Source of the DNA: Arabidopsis thaliana
Lineage: Eukaryota > Streptophyta > Magnoliopsida > Brassicales > Brassicaceae
Assembly: GCF_000001735.4 (NCBI RefSeq)
Contig: NC_003075.7
Location: forward strand, 12,525,001 to 12,589,000
Direction of reading: 5' to 3'
DNA: 64,000 nucleotides
Shown here: piece by piece, positions 18,206 to 23,810 of the stretch
Layout of the letters: each line of letters opens with the position of its first letter
How positions within the stretch are numbered: the first letter of the stretch is position 1
The notes under the pieces: model-generated
The model's input: only the letters and a program-made list of their open reading frames with translations
Databases searched by the model: none
What the model was told of the DNA's origin: nothing
Translations under genes and position numbers: made by a program

Positions 18206-21200
18206 ATGGGCGGAGAAGAGAAGATATTGGTGTCGGTGAGGGTTAGGCCGCTAAACGAGAAAGAGAAGACGAGGAACGATAGATGCGATTGGGAATGTAT
18301 CAACGACACCACAATCATCTGCAAATTCCATAATTTGCCTGATAAGTCTTCCTACACATTTGGTAAGAATTTGAATTGCATCTCTTTCTAACCATTTTGA
18401 TTTGAGGTATACTATTATATGAATCATTTAAAAATGTGTTATAGACAAGGTATTTGGATTCGAATGCCCCACGAAGCAAGTTTACGATGATGGAGCAAAA
18501 GAAGTTGCACTTTGTGTCCTCTCCGGAATTAACTGTAAGAAATAGGTAGGTTTGTTGCATCTCTCCTTATGATCAATCATTTTGATAAATACTATTCTTG
18601 TGTTGCAGCGAGCATTTTCGCGTATGGACAGACAAGTAGTGGGAAAACGTACACCATGAGTGGAATCACTGAATTTGCAATGGACGATATATTTGCTTAC
18701 ATTGACAAGGTTACATACATGAACCTAACTTTTTGTTTTCTGCCATGTATCTAAATTTCTGTCTCTGAGAGATCCTCTGTTGTTTCCTTTAGCATAAACA
18801 AGAAAGAAAATTCACTCTAAAATTCTCAGCCATGGAAATCTACAATGAAGCTGTAAGGGATCTCCTTTGTGAAGATAGTAGCACTCCACTTAGGCTTTTA
18901 GATGATCCAGAGGTCAGCTTAACTTCTTTATCACGCCATTAATAACACTCTAATCATCATTAGCTACTAAATTGATTACTGATATTACTATTTGCAACTT
19001 TGATAGAGAGGAACGGTCGTTGAGAAACTTAGAGAGGAGACTCTCAGAGACAGGAGTCATCTTGAGGAACTTCTTTCTATATGCGAGAGTACTTGAGCAA
19101 AACTTATTTCTTCTTTCTTTCTTCATAATTTAGTTATTACCAACAACTAGGTATATATTGAATTTGTGGATTTTTTTGCAGCTCAGAGGAAGATTGGAGA
19201 GACATCTTTAAATGAGATTAGCTCCAGATCTCATCAGATTCTCCGACTGGTACTCACTTTCATATCTTTTTTTTTTCCCCCTTTTTGCATTCTTGATGAA
19301 AGTTTTTGTTCATGCAGACAATTGAAAGCTCGAGTCAACAATTTTCTCCAGAGAGCTCAGCGACTCTTGCAGCATCAGTGTGCTTTGTTGATCTAGCTGG
19401 AAGTGAACGTGCTTCTCAGACATTATCTGCTGGTTCAAGACTCAAAGAAGGTTGTCACATTAATCGGAGTTTACTTACTCTCGGTACTGTCATCCGGAAA
19501 CTAAGGTCACTTTTGCACCAATTTAGTAATTCTTTGCTAGGTCTCATATCACTTCATCTTTGAGCTGATATGAGTCTTTTATTGAAATTACTACAGCAAA
19601 GGGAAAAATGGACATATACCATATAGAGACTCAAAGCTAACTCGTATACTTCAGAACTCATTGGGTGGAAACGCAAGAACGGCTATCATCTGTACAATGA
19701 GCCCTGCACGTAGTCATCTCGAACAATCAAGAAACACTCTTCTCTTTGCAACTTGTGCTAAAGAGGTGACCACAAATGCTCAAGTCAATTTGGTTGTGTC
19801 TGAGAAAGCTTTGGTGAAGCAACTGCAGCGGGAACTGGCGAGAATGGAGAATGAGTTGAAGAATCTTGGACCTGCTTCTGCTTCTTCAACCTCTGATTTC
19901 TACGCGTTAATGCTCAAACAGAAAGAAGAGTTGATTGCAAAGATGGAGGAACAAATCCATGAACTTAAATGGCAAAGAGATGTAGCTCAATCTCGGGTCG
20001 AGAATTTGCTTAAATCAACAGCGGAAGAGCGGTCATCTTCAAGTTCAATGGATAGCAGAAGAAGAAGAATAAGCTACGATTCAACGGATTTTGATGAGCC
20101 TCGAATGCTAAATAACTTGGGGAAGAGTAACTTGTACTCTCCTGATGAGGATGGTTTCCTGCTGGATGATACTACCCCTCAATTTCCGGGGCATAACCTA
20201 CATGATAAATGGGAGGAGATGGCTCAAAGCACCACCCAAGAACCAGAAGATGCTTGCAAAGAAGTTAGATGCATTGAAGTAAACAGTGGAGAAGCAGAAA
20301 GAGTTCAAATCCAAGACTCACTAGATGACATTGTTGAAAAGAAGGAATATGAACAAAACTATGAGTCCCAAAAGGATGATGCTGATTCATCTATAAAAAA
20401 CATAGATATGGAGTTGAGTTTATATACTAAACCTGAAGCTGAAGATGGGGTAAGTGTAAAGAAATTAATAGAAGACGTCCAAGAGACTGAGCAATCTGTG
20501 GAGAAACAAAAGCAATCTCCAAAGAAAGAAGAAATGGAACAGTATTTGTCTAGAGATATGTCAGAGCAAGTAACGAAGTCACTCCCTGAAGAAGAGCAAT
20601 GTGTACAAGAATATGGAGCCTATGATAAACTTGAAGCTCAAGATGTGCTAACTATAAACAAGTTAGAAGAATCCCAACAGACTGAGCAATCTGTGGAGAA
20701 GGAAGACACAAAAAAGAATTTGTCTTCAAAGAAAGAAGACTTAAAACAGAATTTATCTATGGATCAGTCAGAGCAATTATATAAATCACCTCCAGAGGAT
20801 GAGAAATGTGTAGAGGTGTATGAAGGGTCTGATAAAGACGATAATACATATGAGGCTCTGAAGAAAAAGGTCAAGGAAATGCAGAAGACAATTGAGTACT
20901 TTATGAGTATTCAATCAGCAGAAGAGAAACAATCTCCTTCGTTTAATATTATAGATGATACTTTGAGTCCAGGAGAGTATTTCAAGATGAGAAGAAGCCG
21001 AAGTTGCAGAGAAAATCTCTTGTTTACAAAGGCGGCGGCTGCTGCTGCTAGTAGAGGTTTCATATTCGAGACCACTAACACATCCTTTGATTCAGATATC
21101 ACTGTCTCCATGGACGCACAGAGCATCAAAGATTCTGATACAGAGACTAGCAGTAGCAGCTTCCATGAATTTATGGCAGGACTTAGAGAAAGAACAATGC

Positions 21201-21805
21201 AGCACCATTCCACGCATAGCGACGATACTGATACAAAGACGATGAAGCCAGAAAACACAGATGATGGCGGCGAGAAAACAGAGTTTGAGAGACAACAAAG
21301 CCAAATAATTGAGCTTTGGCAAGTATGTAATGTACCTTTGGTTCACAGAACATACTTTTTCTTGCTCTTCAAAGGCGATCCATCCGACTTTGTTTACATG
21401 GAAGTCGAACTCCGAAGACTATCTTTTCTAAAAGACTCGACCGAGACATCGAGGAAACAAACTGCCAAAGCAGTAACACGCGAGAGGGAATGGTTAGCTA
21501 AGCAAATACCAAACAAGTTTGGAAAGAAGGAAAAAGAAGAAGTTTACAAGAAATGGGGTGTTGAATTGAGCTCAAAACGGAGAAGCCTGCAAGTAACACA
21601 CAAACTATGGAACAACAACACCAAAGACATAGAGCATTGCAAAGAGAGTGCTTCTCTAATAGCTACATTGGTTGGATTCGTTGACTCAACTCTAACACCA
21701 AAGGAAATGTTTGGCCTCAGCTTAACACCTACAACATTCAACATCAAACCCTCCTCTGGCTGGAAATTTTCAAACTCTTTCTCTCGTATTAGCTTCACTG
21801 GATGA
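18206..21805 (+). CDS. Kinesin-7-type motor protein, 1004 aa
   Basis: Eight exons: 18206..18362, 18445..18534, 18609..18709, 18793..18912, 19007..19088, 19182..19249, 19318..19505 and 19597..21805, summing to 1005 codons with the stop. The N-terminal motor starts almost at residue 1 ([11 protein letters not shown]) and has the P-loop GQTSSGKT, switch I NEISSRSH, switch II DLAGSER and the neck-proximal FATCAKEV. Coiled coil follows ([18 protein letters not shown]). The large last exon carries an acidic, Glu/Ser-rich middle with an internal tandem duplication (20429..20833), an Ala run near 21035, and a C-terminal domain ([22 protein letters not shown]) of the type found in the plant NACK/kinesin-7 group. 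An N-terminal motor implies plus-end-directed movement. The individual role is not established from sequence. Confidence 0.93.
20429..20833 (+). repeat. Internal tandem duplication in the kinesin tail (66 + 69 codons)
   Basis: Copy 1 is 20429..20626 and copy 2 is 20627..20833, immediately adjacent and in frame. Shared landmarks, in order, are K-x-EA-x-D, KL-x-E, TEQSVEK, a Lys/Glu block, SEQ, a Pro-Glu-rich segment, C-V and a closing Y...D. The copies have diverged but keep the order and spacing. Confidence 0.85.
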
Positions 21806-22017: not shown

Positions 22018-23810
22018 ATGGCGCAACTAATACGACCAATAAGGCAATTGTCGCCGCAATGTAATCACCATTTTCGTAATCTCCGGTATTTGTTTTCGAA
22101 AAAGCTACCGAACCCACCTTCTTCTATCCCCACTCTTCTTCTCTTCTCGTCTTTCTCCACTGAAAGGTCTCCACCTCGTCGGCGAATTCGTCCCGCGCCA
22201 CCGGAAGCTTTAAAGCCTACTGTTATTGTTGCCGAAGAAGATGGTGATAACGATGGTTACGAGTCTGATTCGTTGAGGAGTCGTAACCAGCGGAAGCGTG
22301 ATGCTCGCCGTGCCGTTAAATGGGGTATGGAACTTGCTTCCTTCTCCGGTGATCAGGTTAAGCAGATTCTGAAGTAAGCTTCTCAAAACTTGGAAACATC
22401 ATCTTTTCAAAATCTTCACTTTTATATTTGTGTTGAAGTTTCTGGTTTTAAAGTAATTGACTTTCTCATCTTAGAGCTGCGTCGCTTGGTGAAGAGGTTT
22501 ATGATGCATTGATGCTTGCGAAGGTAAGTCACAATGAGTACATTTTGGACGTTATAGTTACGTTAATCGTAAATTTGGCACAATGCACATAAGGTGTTCG
22601 TTGTTTTGCCGCAGAGACTAGGCTCGGATGTTCGAGAAGGAAAGCGTAGACATTTCAACTATATTGGTGAGAAAAAACATCATTTTTATGTAGATGAACT
22701 ATTATCTGGGATGTTATCTTTGTATTTTACCATGTTTGTAAATTCTTTAGCTAATGTGGTATAACATGCTCTCAGGGAAATTGTTGCGTGAAGTTGAACC
22801 TGATTTGATGGACACTCTGATTAATGCTACAAAGCAGGGTGATCACTCAACGCTGCAGACGCTGATTAGTTCAGCAAAGGATGTCGCAGATGATGTTGGA
22901 GACAGTTATGATGATGATACAGAAACAGAGTCAGAAGATGAAGAGGAGGTAAGTGTAAACTTGTATCTCAATATAAGTATACCATTCATGTTAAGTGATT
23001 TACACAAGAAAGTTGTCTCCTAGATCGCTTAGTTAAATTCCATCTTTAGGATAGTTTCAGTAACTGCATGGGAGATATGATTTTATGGTGAGGGGAAGAT
23101 TTTGTGGTTAATTGCCGAGGATTTAATAAATATAGTGGCCAATAGAGTGGGGGAGAGGACATTCCAGGTTCTTACGAGGAAAAAAGAGCTTCCGCAACCT
23201 CCTTAGGGGAAGAGGAGAGGATCTCTGAACCACAACATTCCCACTTCTGTGCACACTCATGAATAGCCTTTTAACAAGCTACTGATTACATGTCGAGATG
23301 GATGAAGAGAACTGTGTCTGTTGTTTTCGTAGAGTACGTTTAACTTGTTTGGTGTCTAAACTCAACTACTTTTCAGGGGTCTGACGAATATACGGCTATG
23401 GCTGCGAGATGGTTTGATGGCCTAATCAGTCAAAATGTGGAACTTACAAAGGAGGTTTATTCTCTTCAGAGTGTTGATTTCGATAGACAGGTTAGTCAAA
23501 TTAAAATTGAATAAGTCAAGGAGATGTGTATGACTTGTTTATCATGTGTATGGATCTTTGAACCTAGAGGTCTGATTCAAGAAGCATCATATGGTTTAAT
23601 GGATGTAATCTTTATCCCATTGGTTGTTAATAGGAATTGCGTAAACTTGTTCGGAAAGTACAGTTGGTTCATGAGCAAAGAAAAGGCACAACAGAGGAGA
23701 AGCAGAAAGAAGTTGAGGCTGCATTAGTGACTGCTGAAAAGTCTCTGAATCAATTCCTCTGCTCCATGGCGAAACAAGTGCACAGTGAGCAGACTGATTT
23801 GTACTTATGA
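22018..23810 (+). CDS. YjgA/DarP-like (DUF615) organelle-type protein, 306 aa
   Basis: Six exons: 22018..22373, 22475..22523, 22615..22666, 22776..22948, 23377..23490 and 23634..23810, giving 307 codons with the stop. The first 60 residues are Arg/Ser/Pro-rich with few acids, as in a plastid or mitochondrial transit peptide. The body lines up with bacterial YjgA/DarP: a basic helix RNQRKRDARRA (about 88-98), then AKRLGSDVREGKRRHFNYIGKLLREVEP (bacterial counterpart A-x-RIK-x-EGRRRQLQLIGKMLR), and after an acidic insert (DDDTETESEDEEE) a second half WFDGLI...DRQELRKLVR matching the bacterial DRQQLRTLIR region. DarP acts in assembly of the large ribosomal subunit, so a role in organelle ribosome assembly is an inference. 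ATG at 22018 is the first in frame. Confidence 0.85.

Follow-up and report, generated by a model that had tools for sequence, protein, structure and literature searches.

A divergent DarP/YjgA homologue of Arabidopsis thaliana and its probable place in organelle large-subunit assembly

A stretch of 64,000 nucleotides of Arabidopsis thaliana DNA (the window) was found to contain a gene for a 306-residue protein, whose identity as a homologue of bacterial DarP (YjgA) is strongly supported by its sequence. We consider it probable that this nuclear-encoded plant protein is imported into an organelle and there takes part in assembly of the large ribosomal subunit, as DarP does in E. coli. From the order of loci in this region, we take the gene to be AT4G24175.

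The homology itself has been in print since 2012. The accessible text of that paper contains one sentence stating that AT4G24175, taken here as the present gene, has a domain of bacterial YjgA and that the bacterial protein co-migrates with the 50S subunit, its other mention of the gene being in expression tables (PMC3529323). Plant proteins have also been given the family name UPF0307 in the accessible parts of a paper on faba bean, which includes Medicago MTR_1g112320, and of one on rice; the family name is common to these proteins and the present one, and orthology is assumed. In a literature search conducted mostly without subscription journals, nothing was found on what a plant DarP does, and a maize paper contained no mention of yjgA. 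Relative to the literature found, the comparison of the insert and acidic stretch described below, and the contrast in distribution among bacteria, are new.

Gene model and family membership

The gene occupies positions 22018-23810 of the window on the + strand, from an ATG at 22018 to a stop codon at 23808-23810. Its six spliced exons (921 bases), with GT..AG borders at all five introns, yield exactly the 306 residues that a sequence-only reading of the same DNA had announced. Exon 1 (22018..22373, +) encodes residues 1-118 and part of 119, and thereby the N-terminus, which is without acidic residues to position 48, an acidic stretch at about residues 73-84 and the start of the DarP domain (S88, K93, R94). 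Exon 2 (22475..22523, +) continues from part of residue 119 to 135, and exon 3 (22615..22666, +), with residues 136-152 and part of 153, carries the motif GKRRHFNYIG. GKLLR and most of an acidic insert are encoded by exon 4 (22776..22948, +; part of residue 153 to 210), the end of the insert and the C-terminal lobe as far as DRQ by exon 5 (23377..23490, +; residues 211-248), and ELRKLVR with the C-terminal end by exon 6 (23634..23810, +; residues 249-306 and the stop). The motifs thus run in the order KRDA (93-96), GKRRHFNYIGKLLR (144-157), acidic insert (about 183-216) and DRQELRKLVR (246-255). This is the order in which KRDA, IGKLLR and DRQ-LR-LVR had been listed in the earlier reading, although the motif it called GRRR-type is in fact GKRR.

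A search of Pfam to a limit of E 10 returned PF04751 (DarP) as the sole family, at E 2.8e-30 and with 105.7 bits against a cut-off (gathering score) of 26.3, the match spanning residues 87-271 and positions 3-146 of the 153 in the profile. A significant match was therefore obtained to the profile formerly called DUF615, the search that had been proposed as a check of the assignment. Residues 1-84 matched no Pfam family. When the two lobes were scored alone, both remained above the same cut-off (first lobe, 75.2 bits, E 6.8e-21, profile 3-81; second lobe, 31.6 bits, E 1.8e-07, profile 91-146), in agreement with the claim that both halves of the bacterial family are kept in order. Chance similarity to DarP is ruled out by the E-value of the whole match together with each half passing alone. 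Pfam matches to H-NS and Med4 lay under cut-off, and an NCBIfam match to the SdpC toxin gave 16.1 bits against 99.2; these were taken as chance.

Among PDB sequences searched with phmmer, only two matches fell below E 0.001, namely 2p0t (6.5e-05) and chain 8 of 7bl5, 'UPF0307 protein YjgA' (0.00081), both of them YjgA relatives; the third match listed, 5lec, is an unrelated-looking chain at E 1.7. Together with the Pfam match, these sequence similarities imply a YjgA fold, with its DUF615 lobe, long helix and CTLH-like lobe, for the plant protein. The NCBIfam YjgA equivalog NF003593 reached 64.7 bits, in two stretches, against a cut-off of 70, and therefore the plant protein is not filed as a bacterial-type equivalog. 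Because PF04751 is matched well above its cut-off, yet NF003593 below its own, the protein is, as judged from these profiles, a divergent member of the DarP family.

Searched with the protein at E up to 10, the whole genome yielded the six exons of the DarP gene as its six matches and no second copy; the search proceeded exon by exon, with only the best candidates scored, and a diverged copy could escape it. The DarP profile run over the same genome at E up to 0.001 gave no match, the known DarP gene included, and is uninformative on copy number; a DNA search of a phage collection with exon 1 was likewise without a match. As the gene appears to be single-copy, it would open the YjgA mechanism, with its uL16 recruitment and H68 undocking, to experiment in a eukaryote.

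The locus has presumably been annotated as 'kinesin-like', a label that the sequence-only reading mentioned and considered unsupported. In the DarP product, the kinesin motor domain PF00225 gave no match at the Pfam limit of E 10, a limit at which HMMER filters drop most matches above about 0.1. Upstream and outside the DarP gene, the open frame at 19586..21805 (+) contains the final part of a kinesin motor domain (PF00225) together with DUF3490 (PF11995), and its stop codon lies 212 bases before the DarP ATG, both genes being on the + strand. It is likely that the label was taken over from this neighbour. This proximity, and the remark in the accessible text of the YjgA paper that the CTLH motif acts on microtubules in other proteins (PMC11260487), would favour a kinesin-like or other cytoskeletal protein; against the DarP match and the lack of any kinesin match under the same limit, such a protein is scarcely credible, and kinesin identity is ruled out at the domain level. 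In the accessible part of the 2012 paper AT4G24175 is entered as 'Unknown protein' (PMC3529323).

Comparison with bacterial DarP and a proposed action on the large subunit

The plant protein was compared with 118 bacterial rows, the choice of which was tilted to high scorers: 80 were taken from 233 confirmed candidates of a protein search, 30 were fetched among the 180 matching genomes of presumed Gammaproteobacteria, and 8 were retained of 12 fetched in the Pseudodesulfovibrio phylum, the four partial ones being dropped. Conservation of at least 85% was seen in 29 columns. The plant residue is identical in 18 of these, which include S88, K93, R94, R147, I152-G153-K154, R157, D246, Q248, L250, R251 and R255, and differs in 11, where, among others, a bacterial E is replaced by A220, an R by F223, and the C-terminal R and F by K284 and N287. 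From the isoleucine of IGK to the arginine of DRQ there are 95 residues in the plant protein, against 58-61 in 117 of the 118 bacterial rows and 79 in the one other (L131).

An insert between the halves had been described as acidic, and this was borne out: 34 residues (183-216) stand opposite gaps in at least 90% of the 118 rows, and the most acidic 30-residue span of the protein, 185-214, contains 16 D/E. By analogy with the E. coli protein as described in the accessible text on YjgA, the insert would sit where the lobe-linking central helix should run (PMC11260487). The 25 residues ahead of the DarP domain contain 8 D/E, the corresponding mean in 80 bacterial rows being 6.45 (lowest 2) in about 21 residues, and in its acidity the stretch resembles the loop by which YjgA of E. 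coli recruits uL16. E. coli DarP (PF04751, formerly DUF615, also UPF0307), a 50S assembly factor, and the plant protein have in common both halves in order, the core residues and a run of acidic residues that precedes the domain. The plant protein differs in having about 75 extra N-terminal residues, the acidic insert of 34 residues where the halves are linked, a divergent C-terminal end, and a nuclear gene with five introns.

In the accessible text on E. coli YjgA, an acidic N-terminal loop binds uL16, the D/E residues of this loop are required for uL16 binding and for assembly, and the C-terminal lobe is proposed to hold H68 in an undocked state (PMC11260487). By analogy, late large-subunit assembly in an organelle is our best inference for the job of the plant protein. 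The gene, its family, the conserved residues, the acidic stretch and the insert are observed here; the mechanism is taken from the published E. coli work, and targeting, ribosome binding, uL16 recruitment and an effect on assembly are postulated. The N-terminal 75 or so residues would most likely direct import into mitochondria, plastids or both, and the DarP domain would bind an immature large subunit of bacterial type in the region bounded by the L1 stalk and the central protuberance. Basic uL16 would be drawn in by the acidic residues that precede the domain, which would aid folding at H89 and in the peptidyl-transferase centre; H68 would be held undocked until late by the C-terminal lobe, and the acidic insert between the lobes might loosen or tune the bridge.

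Against an assembly role stand the NF003593 score, the 11 changed columns and a long branch, and such divergence allows a changed role. The protein could have kept the DarP fold and an organellar location but have taken on another job, for example as an RNA-binding or stress factor without subunit assembly. The very long branch in both trees described below, the score of 64.7 against 70, the insert that faces gaps in nearly all of the bacterial rows, and a stress-responsive transcript in the accessible tables of the 2012 paper (PMC3529323) would all suit such a change; the retention of 18 of the 29 bacterially conserved columns, and of the pre-domain acidic stretch in kind, speaks against it, and we regard it as unlikely. 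The assembly role is the reading that we prefer.

In favour of the assembly role, genes for uL16 were located on contigs C7 and C6, which are read as the plastid and the mitochondrial genome, respectively, and at four places on C1 and C2. A uL16-family match at G000:C2:12367013-12367396 (L118) scored 142.3 bits, against 124.4 for the C6 copy, and is possibly a nuclear gene for organelle uL16.

The N-terminus and the organelle

Residues 1-48 contain no D/E, four R, two K and seven S, a composition that fits the transit-peptide-like N-terminus proposed in the earlier reading. In contrast, the amphipathic moment, in a 14-residue test on residues 1-45, was not above that of shuffled sequences (262 of 2000 reached the observed value). 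A transit peptide is plausible from composition only. A moment within the range of shuffles would also be expected if the N-terminus were no transit peptide and the protein acted in the nucleus or cytosol. However, the target of DarP is the bacterial-type 50S subunit, which in plants is confined to organelles, as is well established, and the first 48 residues are basic and without D/E. Furthermore, the protein is tabulated as plastid-located in the 2012 paper, the accessible text of which does not show whether this call is one of those marked as experimental by underlining (PMC3529323). A nuclear or cytosolic protein is, on balance, quite improbable, and import into an organelle is the reading retained here.

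In the accessible tables of the same paper, the AT4G24175 transcript is responsive to perturbation of mitochondria in 7 experiments and to that of chloroplasts in 0 (PMC3529323). The two lines of evidence disagree on the organelle, the stress response indicating mitochondria and the location call plastids. The transcript of the gene is also lower in lines with exchanged cytoplasm, according to the accessible part of a further paper (PMC7285260). An organellar assembly role could explain how a gene without an assigned function comes to mark mitochondrial stress. The sequence CTTGNNNNNCAMG, which we take to be the mitochondrial dysfunction motif, is absent between the kinesin and DarP genes, its nearest occurrence being at 20630-20642, inside a kinesin exon. 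Over the window it was counted 15 times against 4.07 expected, at 8 places from 21 to 50276, of which 7 are palindromic and were each counted on both strands.

Distribution among bacteria and origin

PF04751 was present in 180 of 369 genomes of presumed Gammaproteobacteria (179 above the family cut-off), in 19 of 148 genomes of the Pseudodesulfovibrio phylum and in none of the 385 genomes of presumed Alphaproteobacteria. Fourteen control genomes, including Caulobacter vibrioides and Synechococcus elongatus, were negative except for E. coli; the cyanobacterial evidence is thin, consisting of one control genome without PF04751. The group names are inferred. The reading of the first group as Gammaproteobacteria is based on the 87-row tree described below, where its rows are interspersed with named ones, and on GcrA, presumably an alphaproteobacterial marker, which was found in 0 of 11 of its recurring genomes. 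The third is read as Alphaproteobacteria on account of GcrA in two of the 20 members listed, the centre G399 and G390. GcrA was found in 19 of 80 genomes, and its control was positive also in a Sulfolobus. The accessible text of one paper gives more than 90% of non-CPR bacteria as conserving yjgA (PMC12641178), a figure that conflicts with the fractions obtained here.

Two trees were built, one of 87 rows and one of 55, the latter with 54 bacterial rows hand-picked from the 118 and the plant insert omitted. The plant end branch measured 4.16 changes per column against a median of 0.54 in the 87-row tree, and 5.03 against 0.68 in the 55-row tree, and the plant row adjoined different gammaproteobacterial rows in each. 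It fell within a starred set of 11 rows in the 55-row tree and in no starred set in the 87-row tree. A grouping of the plant row with three Desulfovibrionales-type rows was not rejected in the 55-row tree (p-AU 0.438), and the highest identity of the plant protein to any bacterial row was about 30% over the tree columns. The trees leave the source of the plant DarP unplaced, and no origin is claimed from them.

With PF04751 in none of the 385 presumed Alphaproteobacteria, nor in the cyanobacterial control, and with no position for the plant row settled by the trees, a third bacterium could have been the donor, and the gene may derive from neither endosymbiont; ancient loss in Alphaproteobacteria or Cyanobacteria would give the same pattern. 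It is conceivable, though we put it forward only tentatively, that an organelle large-subunit assembly factor of neither endosymbiont was acquired from a gammaproteobacterial or desulfobacterial donor, became a single nuclear gene that gained an acidic insert, and serves mitochondria, plastids or both. Organelle ribosomes are built largely by inherited bacterial factors, and DarP, apparently missing from the relatives of the mitochondrial endosymbiont and perhaps from those of the plastid one too, would then be an imported part of the organelle ribosome machinery.

The best match to the plant protein among the matches listed (E 1e-11) was L007, labelled Rhodospirillales, which groups with betaproteobacterial rows (support 81/74); the label is doubtful, and a mislabelled source bin is possible. 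Were the label correct, L007 would be one alphaproteobacterial DarP. In some genomes of the Pseudodesulfovibrio phylum (loci L132, L133 and L134) the DarP frame covers the first lobe only (profile 2-86 to 2-88, in ORFs of 100-102 residues), and these are perhaps a one-lobe form of DarP.
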